Part shown: positions 19,830 through 26,780 of the stretch, piece by piece
Position numbering within the stretch: the stretch's first letter is position 1
Layout of the letters: each line of letters opens with the position of its first letter
NCBI GenBank assembly: GCA_023138875.1
Contig: JAGLOO010000045.1
Span: forward strand, 1 to 49,355
Origin: Bacteroidales bacterium
GTDB lineage: Bacteria > Bacteroidota > Bacteroidia > Bacteroidales > GCA-2748055
Reading direction: 5' to 3'
DNA length: 49,355 nt
The notes under the pieces: generated by a model
Database searches by the model: none
What the model was told of the DNA's origin: nothing
What the model saw: the letters and a program-made list of their open reading frames with translations, nothing else
Translations under genes and position numbers: made by a program

Positions 19830-19857
19830 AAAAAAAGGAGTGGGATCAACCACTCCT
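19824..19857 (-). terminator. Intrinsic terminator at the end of gltD
   Basis: On the minus strand AGGAGTGG (19857-19850), loop TTGATC, CCACTCCT (19843-19836) form a perfect eight-base-pair stem, followed directly by TTTTTTT. The gltD stop codon TAG is partly inside the upstream arm. This is a classic Rho-independent terminator for the gltB-gltD transcript, and it separates gltD from the small Cys-cluster gene. Confidence 0.8.
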
Positions 19858-21247
19858 AAAATACAAAAGAAAGAAGAAAGTCATCGATTTTTTTCGCCAC
19901 TTTCCTTCCGGAGGCAATGGCGGTTACTACCAGGCTGGCACCGTTTGCTGCATCTCCTGTGGCAAATACTTTGTCGATATTGGTAGCCATTCTGTTATCA
20001 ACTTCCACATTTTTTCTCGTGTTCAAGGCAATGCCCAGTTCAGAAACAAGTCCTTCATGTTCGGGATGAACGAATCCCATGGCCAGCAGGATCAGGTCAG
20101 TTTCTATCTGCTGGCGTGTGCCAGGAAAATCTATCTCTTCTACTTCCGCATGGGTAACTCTATGTTGCATACCGATAAACCGGAGTGTGGAGAGGCTCCA
20201 CATTCTTTCACAACCTTCTTCGTGGGAAGTTGTAGTTTTCAGAGTTTTTGCAAAATAGGGCCAGGGATTGTCATCTGCCCGCTTTTCAGGAGGTTTGGGC
20301 AGGATCTCGATCTGGGTCACGCAGGTGGCACCCTGTCTGATGGCGGTACCTACACAGTCTGATCCGGTATCACCTCCTCCAATGACCAGGACTTTCCGGC
20401 CTTTGGCCGTGATCCTTTTATCGTAGGCCACATACGCCCCGTCATTGATCCGGTTTTGCTGGGTAAGGTATTCCATGGCAAAATGAATACCATCCAGTTC
20501 ACGGCCATCCACTGTGAGATCCCTGGGTCGCAAGGCTCCGATGGCCAGGCATACTGCATCATACTGGTCTATGATCTCCTTCCCGGAAATATCCCTCCCG
20601 ACTTCAATTCCAGTCCTGATCTCAAGGCCCTCTGCCACCATTACCTCCAGTCTTCTGTCAATGGTCCGTTTATTAAGTTTAAAATCGGGGATCCCAAACC
20701 TGAGCAATCCGCCGATCTTCTCGTCTTTCTCAAATAGAGTAACAGAATGCCCGGCTTTGTTAAGCTGGTCTGCTGCTGCCATCCCGGCGGGACCACTACC
20801 GATCACTGCAACCTTTTTACCTGTCCTTATTTCGGGTGGTACAGGCTTGATGTAACTCTCTGCAAATGCCCTCTCGACAACGGCAACTTCATTTTCACGG
20901 ATGGTTACCGGATCTTCACCGATATTCAGTACACAGGAATGCTCACACGGGGCAGGACAGATTCTGCCTGTAAATTCTGGAAAATTATTGGTTGAATGCA
21001 ACCGGTCACACGCTCCTTTCCAGTCACCACGGTAGAACAGATCATTCCATTCGGGGATCAGGTTGTCCACCGGACAACCCCAGTGACAGAATGGTATTCC
21101 GCAATCCATACACCTGGATGCCTGAAGCATCCGGTCTTCCGAGTTCAGTGTCTGTTCAACTTCACTGTAATCCCCGATGCGCTCATGTACCGGCCTGTTT
21201 CCGGCCGGTTTCTTACCTATCTTCAAGAATCCTTTAGGATCTCCCAT
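19856..21247 (-). CDS. gltD: Glutamate synthase (NADPH) small subunit
   Basis: A 463-residue flavoprotein that oxidises NAD(P)H and feeds electrons to GltB. The N-terminal Fe-S region has CMDCGIPFCHWGCPVDNLIPEWN near residues 44-66 and CPAPCEHSC near 95-103, the usual two [4Fe-4S] sites. The FAD-binding motif is VIGSGPAGMAAADQL near 148, and the second dinucleotide motif VIGGGDTGSDCVGTA is near 290. The C-terminal segment VFATGDAANGASLVVTAIASGRKVA is typical of the family. It starts 11 bases after the gltB stop and ends in an intrinsic terminator, so gltB-gltD is a two-gene unit. Confidence 0.95.
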   Translation of the reverse strand: MGDPKGFLKIGKKPAGNRPVHERIGDYSEVEQTLNSEDRMLQASRCMDCGIPFCHWGCPVDNLIPEWNDLFYRGDWKGACDRLHSTNNFPEFTGRICPAPCEHSCVLNIGEDPVTIRENEVAVVERAFAESYIKPVPPEIRTGKKVAVIGSGPAGMAAADQLNKAGHSVTLFEKDEKIGGLLRFGIPDFKLNKRTIDRRLEVMVAEGLEIRTGIEVGRDISGKEIIDQYDAVCLAIGALRPRDLTVDGRELDGIHFAMEYLTQQNRINDGAYVAYDKRITAKGRKVLVIGGGDTGSDCVGTAIRQGATCVTQIEILPKPPEKRADDNPWPYFAKTLKTTTSHEEGCERMWSLSTLRFIGMQHRVTHAEVEEIDFPGTRQQIETDLILLAMGFVHPEHEGLVSELGIALNTRKNVEVDNRMATNIDKVFATGDAANGASLVVTAIASGRKVAKKIDDFLLSFVF

Positions 21248-21258
21248 AGTTCTTTCAT

Positions 21259-24200
21259 TTAAACATCACCAATCATTTCCACATCCTTCTCCACGGTAGC
21301 CAACTTCTGCCTGATCTCCTCCAGTTCCATCTCCTGCATCACCTTTTTGTATTCATAGGGGATGACCTTGATAAACCGATCAATGAATGAATCCAGGTCT
21401 GTGAGGATCTTCTCGGCGATTTTGCTTCCGGTTAACTCAAAATGCTTGGAAATCAAATCAGTCAGTTCTTTTTTATCATTCAGGTCCTCCACGAGCGATA
21501 GCTCCACCATTCCCATGTTGCAGTAGTAATCAAAATCACCTTCTTCATCGAAAACATAGGCGATCCCGCCGCTCATGCCGGCTGCAAAATTGCGACCGGT
21601 TTTACCCAGCACAACCACGCGTCCGCCAGTCATATACTCGCAGCAATGGTCGCCAACACCTTCCACCACAGCTGTTGCACCACTATTTCTTACTGCAAAC
21701 CGTTCTCCTGCCATACCTGAGATATATGCTTCACCCATGGTGGCACCGTAAAGTATGGTGTTTCCAATGATAATATTCTGATCGGATTCAAAGGTGGATC
21801 CTTCGGGCGGGATTACGATGATCCGTCCACCTGCCAGTCCTTTGCCCAGGTAATCGTTGGTATCACCTTCCAGGTAGAATTCTACTCCGGGGACAAGGAA
21901 TGCGCCGAAACTCTGGCCGGCAGATCCGGCAAACCGAGCCTTGATCGTGCCTTCGGGAAGGCCTTCGCTGCCATAAAGTTTTGCGATCTTTCCGGACAGC
22001 ATGGCTCCGGTTGTTCGATCGGTATTCTTGATGGGCATATGAATGGTCACAGGCTGCTTCTCTTCAATCGCCTGCCTAGACTGTTCTATGAGATAGTGGT
22101 CAAGAACCCCATCGATTTTATGATGTTGCTGTTCGACCTTGTGCAATGGATTTCTCTTTGAAGCCGGTAAAAAAGCGGTGAGATCGCTAAGGTCAAGATT
22201 CTTTGTTTTCCAGTGGGATACAGAGTCATCCCTGATGAGCAGGTCTGCCCTTCCAACAATTTCTTCAAAAGAACGAAATCCTAGTTCAGCAAGGTGCTCA
22301 CGTACTTCCTCCGCTACAAACCTGAAATAATTCTCCACAAAGTCGGCTTTGCCACGAAAACGTTTTCTAAGTTCTGCATCCTGAGTGGCCACTCCCACAG
22401 GGCAGGTGTTCAGGTGACATTTGCGCATCATGACACAACCCAGTACAACCAGAGCACTGGTTGCGAAACCAAATTCTTCGGCGCCAAGGAGGGCTGCCAT
22501 GATCACATCCCTTCCTGTTTTCATTTGTCCATCTGCCTGTAAAACAACTTTTCTCCGGAGGTTATTCATGACCAGGGTCTGTTGTGTTTCGGCAAGTCCA
22601 ATCTCCAGGGGCAATCCGGCATGTTTGATCGAAGAAGATGGACTGGCACCTGTACCTCCTTCTGCACCACTGATGGTGATCAGGTCTGCCGAGGCTTTGG
22701 CCACACCGGCAGCGATGGTCCCTACACCTGTTTCAGAAACAAGCTTTACCGATATCTTCGCATCGGGATTTACGTTTTTCAGATCAAAGATCAGCTGTGC
22801 CAGGTCTTCAATGGAATAGATATCATGATGGGGCGGAGGAGAGATGAGGGTGATTCCGGGAATGGAGTAGCGCGTTTTGGCGATAATCTTATCCACTTTA
22901 TGTCCGGGCAACTGACCCCCTTCTCCGGGCTTGGCACCCTGTGCGACTTTGATCTGTATCTCATCTGCGTTGACCAGGTATTCGGTGGTGACTCCAAAGC
23001 GTCCACTGGCTACTTGTTTGATTGAACTACGCCTGGAATCGCCATTCTCCAGCGGTTGAAACCGATCGGGATCTTCCCCCCCTTCCCCGGTATTGCTTCT
23101 ACCCCCTATGCGGTTCATAGCAATGGCCAGGGCTTCATGGGCCTCCTTACTGATGGAGCCATAGGACATGGCTCCGGTAACAAACCGCTTTATAACCTTT
23201 TCAAGGGATTCAACTTCATCAATGGGGATGGGATTTTTTTTATAGGTAAGAAGTCCCCTCAGGAAACCTGGACGGCTGGTCTCACAATCCACAAGGGCAG
23301 AATATTCCTTATACTTATTGTAATCGTTATTCCGGGTACTCCATTGAAGCAGAGCGACCGAGTCCGGATTCCAGGCATGATGTTCTCCGAATTTACGGTA
23401 GGAATAAACCCCTTCGGTAAAAATCATTGAATGTATATCCTCGGTATATGCCCTTCGGTGGGGGATAAGTACCTCCTCAGCGATCTCTTCCATTCCGATC
23501 CCGCCAATGCGGGACACAGTGCCATTAAAATATTTATCAATCACCGATGGATGAATGCCGATGGCTTCAAATATCTGGGCAGCCCGGTAACTGCGAAGGG
23601 TGCTGATCCCCATCTTTGAAAGGATCTTTAAAAGTCCCTTGTTGATGGCCTGGATGTAATTTTCCTGGGCCTTATCGAAATCCTGCTGAATGACCCGGCT
23701 TTCTACCAGTTGTTCGATGACAGCAAAACTCATGTAGGGATTGATAATACTGGCTCCGTATCCAAACAAAAGGGCAAAGTGCATCACTTCACGCGGCTCT
23801 GCAGATTCTACCACGATGTCAATCTGCATGCGTTTCCGGCAACTGATCAGGTGATGGTGAACTGCCGAAACTGCCAGCAGGGAAGGGATGGGAGCTTTGT
23901 CTTCAGTGATTTCCCTGTCGGTTAAAATGATGTAGTTGTTGTTTTCATCCACAGCCTCTTCTGCAAGGCGGCACATTTCATCCACAGCCTCTTCCAGTCC
24001 GCGTGCACCCTTTTTTGCATTAAAATGCATGGGGATTACCCTGTTTGAAAACCCCTTGTAACGCAGGTTTTTTACCACCTGGAAATAGGTGTTGTTGATG
24101 ACCGGACTCTTGAACTTAACCATTTTTACATGGTCAGGAGATTCATCCAGAATATTGGTCTGCAACGATCCCAGGTAACCGGTAAGTGTCATCACCATCT

Positions 24201-25788
24201 CTTCACGGATGGGATCGATGGCCGGGTTGGTAACCTGGGCAAAAAGCTGTTTAAAATAATTGAACAGTCTGTAAGGCTTCTTGCTCAAAACGGTGATGGG
24301 TATATCATTGCCCATGGATCCGATGGGCTCTTTTCCAGATTCGGCCATGGGTTTGAGGATGGTCCCGATATCCTCCCTGCTGTAGTTAAATGAGGCCAGA
24401 TAGCGATTGTATGATTCTCCAAGACCCGGAGGTATAATGTTTCCGGTTTGTATCTGTTCAAGGTTGACCATGTTCTTTCCGATCCAGCTCATGTATGGAT
24501 GCGCCGATGCCAGCTGGGCTTTTAGGACCTCATCCCTGTAGATCTTTCCTTCCTGTACATCCACCAAGATCAGCTTACCTGGCTTAAGCCTTCCTTTCTC
24601 CTTTATATCTTCAGCCGGAAAAGTTTGTACACCTACTTCCGACCCCATGATGATCATGTCAGCATTCGTAATTACATACCTGGAGGGACGCAGTCCGTTA
24701 CGGTCGAGCATACCACCGATGTACCTCCCGTCGCTGAAGATCAGGGAAGCCGGACCATCCCAGGGTTCCATAAAAGTAGAGTAATACTGATAAAAGGCTT
24801 TTAACTCCGGGGAGATGGGATTTTTTTCATTCCATGACTCGGGAATCAGGATGGACATGGCATAGGGAAGGGATTTCCCGCTCATAATCAGAAATTCCAG
24901 CACGTTGTCAAGTGATGCAGAATCACTTTTATCGGGTTCAATCACAGGATATATCCTGCCCAGGTCACCCAGGATGTCTGATTTAAGGATAGACTCGCGT
25001 GCCTCCATCCAGAAACGGTTGCCCTTTACGGTATTGATCTCACCATTGTGGGCGAGCATGCGGAATGGTTGTGCCAGGTCCCAACTGGGGAATGTGTTTG
25101 TGCTGAACCTGGAATGTACAAGGGCAATGGCACTATGGATCCTGCTATCCTGAAGGTCAAGAAAATATTCACCCAGTTGCTCTGAAGTTAACATCCCCTT
25201 ATAAATCAGGATCTTTGTAGAGAGACTGGGCAGGTAAAAGAAGCTTTTCTGTTTCAGGTGGGAAGTTGCTACGTATTTCTCCGTCCTTTTTCGTATAATG
25301 TATAGTTTACGTTCCAGTTCATCCTGTGGCAGGTCGGCACCCAGAAGGATCTGCTTCATGCCGGGTTCGGCAGTTCTGGCGATGTCGCCGATGGTACTGT
25401 TATCCCTGGGTACTTCCCTGAAACCAATAAGCCGGACCCCCTCATCGTTCACAAACTGTACCAGGATCTCTTCGCACTTTTTGGCTTCTGCAGGATCCTG
25501 AGGAAGGAAGACAAGGCCCGTTCCGAACTGGCCCTCGGGTGGGATGGCATACCCTTGAATAAGATAAAAGTCCCTGGGTATCTGTATCATAACTCCTGCT
25601 CCATCCCCGGATTTACTATCTGATCCTTCTGCGCCCCGGTGTGTCATGTTCACCAGGGTTTCCAGTCCCCGCTTGATGATATCATGCGATTTCTTTCCTT
25701 TCAGATGTGCTACGAATCCTATCCCGCAGTTGTCATGTTCAAATGCGCTTCTGTATAATCCTGCATGTTCGGGTCTCTCTTTTCTCAT
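21259..25788 (-). CDS. gltB: Glutamate synthase large subunit
   Basis: A 1509-residue GOGAT large subunit that makes two glutamates from glutamine and 2-oxoglutarate. The N-terminal type-2 glutaminase domain starts at Cys21 (EHDNCGIGFVAH), so a 20-residue propeptide should be removed. The central domain follows (about 450-750), then the FMN synthase domain with KVAQGAKPGEGGQLPGHKV near 940. The [3Fe-4S] ligands are in CVMMRKCHLNTC, and the C-terminal beta-helix domain (about 1230-1480) has the GGRVVVLGKTGRNFAAGMSGG repeat. Length matches the bacterial enzyme (about 1500). An unusually strong SD, GGAGGTGA (25802-25795), lies six bases before the ATG. The leader carries an attenuator-like structure. 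Confidence 0.97.
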   Translation of the reverse strand: MRKERPEHAGLYRSAFEHDNCGIGFVAHLKGKKSHDIIKRGLETLVNMTHRGAEGSDSKSGDGAGVMIQIPRDFYLIQGYAIPPEGQFGTGLVFLPQDPAEAKKCEEILVQFVNDEGVRLIGFREVPRDNSTIGDIARTAEPGMKQILLGADLPQDELERKLYIIRKRTEKYVATSHLKQKSFFYLPSLSTKILIYKGMLTSEQLGEYFLDLQDSRIHSAIALVHSRFSTNTFPSWDLAQPFRMLAHNGEINTVKGNRFWMEARESILKSDILGDLGRIYPVIEPDKSDSASLDNVLEFLIMSGKSLPYAMSILIPESWNEKNPISPELKAFYQYYSTFMEPWDGPASLIFSDGRYIGGMLDRNGLRPSRYVITNADMIIMGSEVGVQTFPAEDIKEKGRLKPGKLILVDVQEGKIYRDEVLKAQLASAHPYMSWIGKNMVNLEQIQTGNIIPPGLGESYNRYLASFNYSREDIGTILKPMAESGKEPIGSMGNDIPITVLSKKPYRLFNYFKQLFAQVTNPAIDPIREEMVMTLTGYLGSLQTNILDESPDHVKMVKFKSPVINNTYFQVVKNLRYKGFSNRVIPMHFNAKKGARGLEEAVDEMCRLAEEAVDENNNYIILTDREITEDKAPIPSLLAVSAVHHHLISCRKRMQIDIVVESAEPREVMHFALLFGYGASIINPYMSFAVIEQLVESRVIQQDFDKAQENYIQAINKGLLKILSKMGISTLRSYRAAQIFEAIGIHPSVIDKYFNGTVSRIGGIGMEEIAEEVLIPHRRAYTEDIHSMIFTEGVYSYRKFGEHHAWNPDSVALLQWSTRNNDYNKYKEYSALVDCETSRPGFLRGLLTYKKNPIPIDEVESLEKVIKRFVTGAMSYGSISKEAHEALAIAMNRIGGRSNTGEGGEDPDRFQPLENGDSRRSSIKQVASGRFGVTTEYLVNADEIQIKVAQGAKPGEGGQLPGHKVDKIIAKTRYSIPGITLISPPPHHDIYSIEDLAQLIFDLKNVNPDAKISVKLVSETGVGTIAAGVAKASADLITISGAEGGTGASPSSSIKHAGLPLEIGLAETQQTLVMNNLRRKVVLQADGQMKTGRDVIMAALLGAEEFGFATSALVVLGCVMMRKCHLNTCPVGVATQDAELRKRFRGKADFVENYFRFVAEEVREHLAELGFRSFEEIVGRADLLIRDDSVSHWKTKNLDLSDLTAFLPASKRNPLHKVEQQHHKIDGVLDHYLIEQSRQAIEEKQPVTIHMPIKNTDRTTGAMLSGKIAKLYGSEGLPEGTIKARFAGSAGQSFGAFLVPGVEFYLEGDTNDYLGKGLAGGRIIVIPPEGSTFESDQNIIIGNTILYGATMGEAYISGMAGERFAVRNSGATAVVEGVGDHCCEYMTGGRVVVLGKTGRNFAAGMSGGIAYVFDEEGDFDYYCNMGMVELSLVEDLNDKKELTDLISKHFELTGSKIAEKILTDLDSFIDRFIKVIPYEYKKVMQEMELEEIRQKLATVEKDVEMIGDV

Positions 25789-25794
25789 ACCAGG

Positions 25795-25802
25795 TCACCT
25801 CC
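25795..25802 (-). promoter_or_regulatory. Strong Shine-Dalgarno sequence of gltB
   Basis: GGAGGTGA six bases upstream of the gltB ATG. Most genes in this window lack a recognisable SD, as usual for Bacteroidota, so this one stands out. The bases TGACCT that overlap its 3' end (25797-25792) are complementary to AGGTCA in the loop of the upstream terminator hairpin (25845-25840). That could allow loop-SD pairing, although six bases is a short match. Confidence 0.6.
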
Positions 25803-25819
25803 TGTGTTAATGCATAGAT

Positions 25820-25857
25820 AAAAAAAACCGTTCTCTTCATGACCTGAGAACGGTTTT
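25820..25857 (-). terminator. Intrinsic terminator inside the gltB leader (attenuator)
   Basis: On the minus strand AAAACCGTTCTC (25857-25846), a ten-base loop, then GAGAACGGTTTT (25835-25824) give a perfect 12-base-pair stem that runs into eight consecutive T residues. It lies about 32 bases before gltB and downstream of the gltB promoter. No gene precedes it on that strand, so its natural role is conditional termination before gltB. On the plus strand the hairpin is followed by CTTATATTT, a poorer U-tract. Confidence 0.85.
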
Positions 25858-25884
25858 CTTATATTTCAGTTCATACCATTCTCA
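25845..25884 (-). promoter_or_regulatory. Candidate antiterminator pairing in the gltB leader
   Basis: TGAGAATGGT (25884-25875) can pair with ACCGTTCTCA (25854-25845): ten consecutive pairs with one U-G wobble. The second segment is most of the 5' arm of the terminator stem, so the two structures exclude each other. The intervening loop is 20 bases. The first three bases of the upstream segment are the TGA stop of the leader ORF, so a ribosome there would cover the antiterminator and favour termination. Confidence 0.6.
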
Positions 25885-25944
25885 TCCAGACCATATGATC
25901 CCAATTGTCATATGCCTATTTACTGTATTAGAATGTGATTTCAT
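25882..25944 (-). CDS. Candidate 20-residue leader peptide of gltB
   Basis: An ATG at 25944 opens a short frame encoding MKSHSNTVNRHMTIGIIWSG and ending in TGA at 25884-25882, the first bases of the antiterminator segment. It begins about 20 bases after the predicted transcription start. Codon content does not point to one amino acid: there is no Gln or Glu, and three Ile and three Ser are scattered. A perfect inverted repeat CATATGA/TCATATG (25914-25908 and 25898-25892) lies within the coding part. Translation is not demonstrated. The case rests on position and on the stop codon falling exactly at the regulatory stem. Confidence 0.4.
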   Translation of the reverse strand: MKSHSNTVNRHMTIGIIWSG

Positions 25945-25972
25945 GTAATAATAACACTTTATTAAGTGAAGG

Positions 25973-26003
25973 CAAATATATGCAATTAAATTACGAATCA
26001 AAA
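25973..26003 (-). promoter_or_regulatory. Predicted gltB promoter (-33 TTTTG, -7 TATATTTG)
   Basis: TTTTG (26003-25999), an 18-base spacer, then TATATTTG (25980-25973), an exact match to the Bacteroidota TAnnTTTG -7 consensus. Transcription should start near 25966, giving a leader of about 178 bases before the gltB ATG. This is the best promoter match I found in the window. Confidence 0.6.
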
Positions 26004-26183
26004 CATAACCGTGGAAATTAATTATATATTGGTAAGAAAAGAGTGTCTATAGCTTATAAACTGAAAGCAATATCTGCTCCAATGGACAGCACTTTCTGAT
26101 CATGAAAACCATTGCCTTGATTGATTGGTGTCAAATCCTTAAATTGCGGTAATACCGGAATCCTTAAACCTGAATTTCAAGTT

Positions 26184-26780
26184 ATGAGATATAATGTTCA
26201 ACATCTTCTTATCATCATTCTGTTGTGCGTATTTAACATGCTACATGGACAGAAAACTGCACTTCTGATCATTGACGTCCAGGATTTCTATTTTCCTGGT
26301 GGAAGGCTCCAGCTTGAAAAACCTGAAGAAGCCGGGATGAATGCCGGGCTTCTGCTGGATCATTTCAGGAAAATTGCATTACCGGTGTATCATGTAAGAC
26401 ATAATTTTGAACCGGGTGGGAACATCCATCATTATGTGAAGCCAATCAATGGCGAAAGCGTGATTTCCAAAGACGAGGTCAATGTTTTTCTCAATACAGA
26501 GTTACTTGACATCCTTCAAGGAGATTCAGTTGGGCAACTGGTGATATGCGGGATGCAAACCCACATGTGTGTGGAGGCAGCTGTAAGGGCTGCACATGAT
26601 TTCGGCTTCTCCTGTCTGCTGGTTTCCGATGCCTGTGCAACCCGGGCACTTCAGTACGAAGAACACATTATTCCGGCAAAAAATGTTCATTTCTCAACCA
26701 TCCAAACCCTGAAGGACACCTATGCGAAAGTAATTACCACCGAAGAACTGTTAAGGGAATTCAATCAATTCATCAGGTAA
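26184..26780 (+). CDS. Secreted isochorismatase-family cysteine hydrolase
   Basis: A 198-residue protein from ATG 26184. The first 23 residues (hydrophobic LLIIILLCVFNMLHG) look like a signal peptide, so the enzyme is probably periplasmic. The isochorismatase-like fold follows: TALLIIDVQDFYFPGG with the catalytic Asp, VYHVRHNFEPGG, and VICGMQTHMCVEAAVRAAHDFGF with the catalytic Cys and the preceding cis-peptide region. Known members hydrolyse amides, nicotinamide or isochorismate; the substrate here is not evident. The frame is open further upstream to 26121, but that would bury the signal sequence. A secreted location is unusual for this mostly cytosolic family. Confidence 0.82.
   Translation: MRYNVQHLLIIILLCVFNMLHGQKTALLIIDVQDFYFPGGRLQLEKPEEAGMNAGLLLDHFRKIALPVYHVRHNFEPGGNIHHYVKPINGESVISKDEVNVFLNTELLDILQGDSVGQLVICGMQTHMCVEAAVRAAHDFGFSCLLVSDACATRALQYEEHIIPAKNVHFSTIQTLKDTYAKVITTEELLREFNQFIR

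Follow-up and report, generated by a model that had tools for sequence, protein, structure and literature searches.

In the classic ribosome-mediated attenuators, segment 2 of the leader can pair with an earlier part of the leader ORF, and this 1:2 pairing keeps the operon off without translation. Within Bacteroidota, Vitreschak and colleagues are said to have predicted in 2004 attenuators of branched-chain amino-acid (BCAA) genes in Bacteroidetes/Chlorobi, and Weinberg reportedly described in 2010 the Bacteroid-trp RNA, an attenuator-like leader of this phylum. To our knowledge, the control of nitrogen assimilation in Bacteroidota is little understood. Among the sources available in part, one treats the theory of control codons and places those of trp at codons 10 and 11 of a 14-residue peptide (PMC1183508); others offer clues to leader-peptide attenuation before amino-acid operons in Flavobacterium psychrophilum (PMC9723704) and leader-like short ORFs in long 5' UTRs of B. 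thetaiotaomicron (PMC7366714). In the available text of a source dealing with ilvB1 leader peptides in mycobacteria, gltB is named only as a vulnerable gene (PMC13236596); in Corynebacterium without (p)ppGpp, gltBD is raised, and ilv, aro and trp are named as attenuated (PMC6892785, in part). The available parts of PMC2965389, PMC4833913 and PMC8305728 hold nothing on gltB. Titles and abstract openings in the open full-text literature, a scope that stops short of supplements and most subscription papers, name no gltB attenuator, either for papers that join gltB or glutamate synthase with attenuation or leader peptides or among the matches listed on attenuation in Bacteroidetes. This literature agrees, as does Rfam (below), with a first-pass annotation of the present locus, which knew of no report of such an attenuator before gltB in Bacteroidota.

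Here we describe the gltB leader of a Bacteroidales bacterium (GCA_023138875.1, contig JAGLOO010000045.1), which lies on the minus strand at 25,789-26,003 of the 49,355-nt stretch of DNA that was analysed (the window). Judged from sequence, the gltBD leader is very probably a ribosome-mediated transcription attenuator, with the following parts from promoter to genes:

25994..26003, minus strand: -33 promoter-like element TTTTGATTCG, with TTTTG at 26003-25999 (sequence)
25973..25980, minus strand: -7 promoter-like element TATATTTG (sequence)
25882..25944, minus strand: leader ORF of 20 codons plus TGA, encoding MKSHSNTVNRHMTIGIIWSG (sequence; ORF placement in relatives)
25897..25917, minus strand: putative control stretch, -36 to -18 from GAATGG (I/L/V positions in BCAA leaders; AGG position)
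25875..25884, minus strand: segment 2, TGAGAATGGT, antiterminator 5' strand, its first triplet being the ORF stop codon (sequence, covariation)
25846..25857, minus strand: segment 3, AAAACCGTTCTC, which forms the 5' arm of the terminator and can pair with segment 2 instead (sequence, covariation)
25820..25835, minus strand: segment 4, the 3' arm and tail of the terminator, made up of GAGAACGGTTTT and the remainder of the eight-T run (sequence, covariation)
25798..25803, minus strand: AGGAGG ahead of gltB, outside the terminator (sequence)
21259..25788, minus strand: gltB, the gene under control, encoding the 1509-aa large subunit of glutamate synthase (NCBIfam)
19856..21247, minus strand: gltD, glutamate synthase small subunit, 11 bases 3' of gltB (NCBIfam) and presumably co-transcribed with it

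Two features of a ribosome-mediated attenuator are evident in the window itself, namely an intrinsic terminator between promoter and first gene and an exclusive antiterminator that uses the terminator's 5' arm. AAAACCGTTCTC (25857-25846) pairs perfectly with GAGAACGGTTTT (25835-25824) over 12 bp, with eight T at 25827-25820, four of which lie inside the hairpin arm; alternatively, TGAGAATGGT (25884-25875) pairs with ACCGTTCTCA (25854-25845) over 10 bp, one of them G-U. TTTTG and TATATTTG resemble a promoter pair of the Bacteroidota type, and transcription probably starts near 25966. The upstream neighbour, an isochorismatase-domain gene (26121-26780, plus strand), is divergent. All of this bears out the first-pass annotation, which had described a -33/-7 promoter-like pair with a leader of about 178 bases, a perfect 12-bp hairpin with eight T at 25857-25820, an upstream segment able to pair over ten bases with the terminator's 5' arm, the mutual exclusion of two pairings that share that arm, and the lack of a same-strand upstream gene for the terminator to serve. 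A repeat or mobile hairpin was considered and rejected, the leader giving a single blastn match in the genome.

The layout recurs well beyond the window. In a family sample of 27 other genomes, the N-terminal 200 aa of GltB matched in 23 (15 of the same genus, 8 of other genera), and ORF, GAATGG-like segment and hairpin are present in all 23, with a degraded GAATGG core in three family members (L023, L024, L025) and a GTG start of the leader ORF in L017. At the level of the order, GltB matched in 92 of 295 genomes and the upstream region was read in 90 (G188 and G302 being left out); the element precedes gltB in at least 15 of these 90, spread over six families of the sample (G000, G003, G019, G024, G040, G068, G090, G138, G156, G174, G178, G194, G252, G271 and G286), a borderline case (G144) not being counted among them, and 75 of the 90 upstream regions showed no such element. 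G138 was missed by the terminator scan and caught by R1, a covariance model that captures the core as seen in 41 leaders (30 gltB, 11 BCAA), so other elements may have been missed as well.

An exact-pattern scan of a species-level genome collection gave 68 loci, of which 43 precede gltB (including L080, which ends before the gene and was assigned by its near-identical leader) and 13 precede BCAA genes; 12 were dropped, namely ten outside Bacteroidota together with L098 (chance or coding matches) and L079 (masked leader). At E<=0.001, R1 matches at least once in 35 of the 295 genomes sampled from the order and in 19 of the 395 from the class, several weaker matches in these samples being plain terminators. 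From the 61 rows of R1 hits that were read, 13 were left out of the counts: two duplicates, eight with an unrecognised or unrelated gene, several of them resembling plain terminators (L134, L139, L140, L141, L143, L147, L148, L153), and three whose ORFs look ilvB- or ilvE-like by eye and were missed by the text filter (L144, L146, L150); L084 was also dropped as a near-copy. The resulting collection holds 118 distinct elements, 63 before gltB and 55 before BCAA genes. Within the window's own genome, R1 at E<=0.01 finds the gltB element (77.8 bits), one before ilvD (46.2 bits), the gltB palindrome as read from the opposite strand (34.7 bits) and nothing else; five weaker hits have E from 0.46 to 6.4, and the three inspected lie before ORFs that look unrelated by eye.

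Covariation was assessed in a gapless alignment of 105 distinct leaders, against shuffles that leave relatedness among the leaders in place. The antiterminator is paired in 88.8% of cells, versus 34-52% for versions slid by 1-3 columns; it has 56 two-sided changed cells against 24.5 in shuffles (0/500 as high), 6 of 11 pairs changed on both sides against 3.9 (4/500 as high) and a covariation score of 0.215 against 0.142 (0/500). The terminator is paired in 98.1% of cells, with 113 two-sided changed cells against 34.4 (0/500) and a score of 0.411 against 0.228 (0/500), its two-sided pairs (5) and further pair types (16) not standing clearly above shuffles (329/500 and 44/500). Since the terminator arms were placed by their pairing, the terminator test is tilted towards the structure; the tilt is smaller in the antiterminator test, for which segment 2 was found from its own sequence. 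Many elements entered the collection through a match to the core, and the conservation of its sequence therefore cannot count as independent evidence. With the layout conserved and both helices covarying in relatives, the hairpin arrangement reflects more than chance. The first-pass annotation had proposed looking for just such conservation and covariation, and both stems covary over the 105 leaders. Its reading, that conditional termination in the leader sets gltB expression, is likewise supported by these exclusive, covarying helices and is the one we prefer; it was incomplete in missing both the leader ORF as the likely sensor and the core shared with ilv/leu genes.

Other stretches of the leader are conserved too. 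A TANNTTTG box lies 60-110 nt 5' of segment 2 in 59 of 63 gltB leaders, with 45 occurrences starting at -86 to -89, and TTTTGATTCGKWA is found at the -33 element in 19 of 63. Around this element, TTTTGATTCGTAAT (25990-26003, minus strand) is conserved well past the usual TTG in many leaders of the genus and family; combined with the -7 box it occurs once in this genome, and it may perhaps be the site of a regulator. Separately, a clade including L032, L035 and L036 has an extra conserved stretch (approximately GGATTAGGGAT) between segments 2 and 3 of its gltB leaders, and nothing like it is present in the window's genus.

In Bacteroidota this core is also found ahead of ilvD, leuA, ilvE and ilvB, with downstream genes identified by NCBIfam for ilvD (L101), leuA (L114), ilvE (L094) and ilvB (L071); these four were checked, and other BCAA gene labels come from similar N-terminal sequence or text matches. 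Leader peptides of these ilv/leu elements are rich in I/L/V (56% vs 29% shuffled). The window's genome has such a sister attenuator before its own ilvD, with the peptide MTKSILHIILVVVVLVLIPGAT carrying Ile/Leu/Val codons (L101:1501-1578; C17:57492-57569, plus strand), and gltB, ilvD and leuA elements occur together in G286, G271 and G090. With an RNA core in common with ilv/leu attenuators of the phylum, the gltB element belongs to a wider kind. Across Bacteroidales the core is seen in leuA and ilvD leaders, and in other orders in ilvE leaders (L114, L124, L130, L236, L242 and others). Two leaders, before ilvE (L094, ~225-335) and ilvB (L071, ~215-330), appear as tandem attenuators in which a second I/V-rich short ORF (MQYIVVIIIIIIIIPLRL and MKKFKNILTPIVIIVVIVRPSG, respectively) and a second CCCTTCTC hairpin with T-run lie past the first terminator.

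A third feature of a ribosome-mediated attenuator is a short ORF with its stop codon placed at the strand of the antiterminator. The ORF at 25944-25882, the likely sensor and the part that had been overlooked, starts about 20 nt past the likely transcription start, and its TGA is the first triplet of TGAGAATGGT. Of the 63 gltB leaders, 59 carry an ATG-started ORF of at least 14 aa with its end within -14 to +3 of segment 2, where dinucleotide shuffling of the upstream part leads one to expect 7.3; the BCAA leaders have such an ORF in 42 of 55, with 6.6 expected. In the gltB leaders the stop lies at -3 in 54 of 63, at -2 in three, at -6 in two and at -12 in two, the remaining two having no ATG ORF. 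A mini-ORF within segment 2 (ATG GTA TGA) was not counted, its frame not being kept across families by eye.

The cluster of codons cognate to the operon product, typical of the classic trp/his/ilv leaders, is absent from the gltB leaders. Among 59 of the 63 gltB peptides, taken as clade means, D+E is 5% vs 7% shuffled, I/L/V 28% vs 25% and H/K/N/Q/R over whole peptides 34% vs 30%; the window peptide has no Glu run, and gltB peptides have no run of any one amino acid. Overall composition also failed to yield a single sensed amino acid, His being raised in clades A, B, C and E (7-18% vs 3-4%) and not in most others. Side-chain nitrogen over the whole peptide is up in 8 of 11 clades, which is unconvincing alone, and was set aside for the stronger position-specific test given below. 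Nor is 1:2 pairing supported as a general feature of gltB leaders, strong as it is in L117, L050, L052 and L118: in the window it has z 0.0 (p 0.47), and mean z is -0.89 over gltB leaders, with 3 of 63 at p<=0.01, versus -2.04 and 14 of 55 over ilv/leu leaders.

The edge of a ribosome lies about 12-15 nt ahead of its A site. In BCAA leaders, I/L/V codons make up 70-88% of positions -36 to -18 from GAATGG and 23% at -15, and this stretch marks where a stalled ribosome must stand with segment 2 left free, in keeping with that ribosome edge. At codon -21 (21 nt before the GAATGG of segment 2), I/L/V falls from 88% in ilv/leu leaders to 8% in gltB leaders, 59 of 63 of which have Arg, Lys, His, Asn or Gln there, mostly as AGG. 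Weighted over 12 hand-made clades, H/K/N/Q/R at -21 reaches 88% against a mean of 33% in position permutations (0/2000), for a residue set picked after the data were seen. In-frame AGG at -21 (-20 in three) is found in 42 of 61 ATG-started gltB ORFs, compared with a mean of 3.5 and a maximum of 10 in 500 codon shuffles, and in 43 of 63 leaders with any start codon. Where the stop lies at -6 or -12 (L044, L097, L073, L083) AGG is still at -21, and where it lies at -2 (L011, L014, L015) AGG is at -20, one base nearer with the frame kept; The position of AGG is thus tied, within the reading frame, to segment 2 and not to the stop. In families that lack AGG, the residue at -21 is mostly Lys, His, Asn or Gln, and once Arg as AGA (L060). 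Five non-AGG clades agree with H/K/N/Q/R, the single-leader clade of L017 disagrees, and for clade B the agreement is 3 of 5. On the GltB tree the AGG lineages group together (7 label changes over 62 rows vs 19.3 shuffled, AGG being scored at codon -6 from the stop), so the effective independent observations are few.

The window is itself one of four exceptions at -21 (Gly; the others are L017 with Ile, L023 with Ser and L024 with Gly). Its codon there is GGG (25902-25900, minus strand), set between Ile codons and followed by Ile-Ile, and the codons flanking it also differ from those of its relatives, while the 15 other leaders of the genus keep AGG at -21/-20. In the window species, AGG and CAT at codons 10-11 are further candidates for the sensed codon.

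As the likeliest signal, a shortage of charged tRNA for nitrogen-rich amino acids is, on a tentative view, quite possible, with less confidence for the window species and its Gly at -21. The sensed residue would be Arg in most of the window's genus and other AGG lineages, and mostly Lys, His, Asn or Gln elsewhere. RNA polymerase would start near 25966 and a ribosome would begin the 20-codon leader ORF. Free translation to the stop would let the ribosome cover segment 2, whereupon segment 3 would pair with segment 4 and transcription would stop at the T-run; a stall at least about five or six codons before the stop (at or before -18) would let segment 2 capture segment 3, in which case no terminator would form and gltBD would be transcribed. 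A shortage of the most nitrogen-costly residues would thereby raise nitrogen assimilation. It is conceivable, as a more speculative proposal, that this is a 'nitrogen-cost' attenuator, in which a control codon for any of Arg, Lys, His, Asn or Gln, swapped among lineages, sets gltBD.

The ORF might instead be read by a ribosome that reports general translation rate or initiation (or BCAA in some lineages), with AGG acting as a pause or a Shine-Dalgarno-like site, a reading we regard as unlikely and still worth weighing. It would fit the lack of a dominant single amino acid in gltB peptides, the 51-59% I/L/V of gltB leaders at -45, -42, -30 and -27, and the window peptide's end, IGIIWSG. Furthermore, Arg at codon -6 from the stop is AGG in 38 of 39 cases, versus 30% AGG among the Arg codons of gltB genes, which suggests a constraint on sequence over one on the amino acid; however, a choice among synonymous codons is what the available part of PMC1183508 expects of regulatory codons. 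The triplets flanking AGG vary, although AAA or AAG precedes it in 27 of 43, a three-base core is short for a Shine-Dalgarno site, and most families without AGG have Lys, His, Asn or Gln at that place, all of which counts against this reading.

Leader peptides such as TnaC and SpeFL arrest the ribosome on binding a small molecule. A similar arrest at or before the stop, here favouring termination, is improbable for gltB: the stop does abut the GAATGG of segment 2 in 54 of 63 leaders, and peptide ends such as SG or RQSG before the stop are conserved within clades, but the layout stays constant while peptide sequences differ between families. Moreover, amino-acid constraint seems mild in one clade, the window's genus, where the ORFs of 15 species have a pN/pS of 0.63 in frame vs 0.97 and 0.87 in shifted frames, and it is absent in a second ('fen', 11 species' ORFs, pN/pS 1.07).

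A switch independent of translation, in which a ligand-binding RNA, an RNA-binding protein or an antisense RNA picks the hairpin, is very improbable. GAATGG is near-invariant beyond the needs of pairing, though partly because some leaders were found by the core, and a gltD riboswitch candidate has been proposed in Negativicutes (PMC8632094, in part); yet the ilv/leu relatives have I/L/V leader peptides, and a known riboswitch was rejected on the absence of Rfam matches at gathering score in the window and in 18 related loci, ilv/leu loci included, the leader's five sub-threshold matches at E<=10 being noise from microRNA and snoRNA families. That the hairpin is nothing but a terminator, there to reduce gltB expression or to close off a small RNA, is scarcely credible, for although minimum-free-energy folds favour it (segments 2-3 only give the antiterminator at -12.4 kcal/mol, and with segment 4 added the terminator wins at -18.8), the antiterminator has two-sided covariation and the ORF placement is conserved.

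If the nitrogen-cost reading is true, a single RNA core would act in the BCAA branch and the nitrogen branch alike, with leader peptides exchanged between them. A gltB switch read by translation would tie nitrogen entry to tRNA charging, not to a dedicated nitrogen sensor alone. The shared core also provides a covariance model for listing attenuators of the phylum, with sensed residues proposed from one codon position.

Compared with known systems, the gltB leader resembles the enterobacterial trp/his/ilv/leu attenuators in its leader ORF, in an antiterminator and a terminator sharing one arm, in a stop beside segment 2 and in control codons a few codons before that stop. It differs in that the control codons are not for the operon product, that the target is a nitrogen-assimilation enzyme and that 1:2 pairing is not significant in the window; lacking product-cognate codons, it is said to work like a classic attenuator and is not classed as that type. 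With the Bacteroidota ilvD/leuA/ilvE/ilvB attenuators it has in common GAATGG, then CC followed by G/A/T and TTC, a matching 3' arm with T-run and a similar stop placement, differing from their I/L/V-rich peptides. The Bacteroid-trp RNA is likewise an attenuator-like Bacteroidota leader, found with trp genes, and the gltB leader has no Rfam hit. The gltD (SRC-18-1) candidate of Negativicutes is also a cis element before a glutamate synthase gene, in another phylum and thought to hide the ribosome site, with no leader ORF mentioned in the available part of its source (PMC8632094). Within the literature covered, gltBD is a previously undescribed target and the codon rule is unusual, in a leader that works like a ribosome-mediated attenuator.
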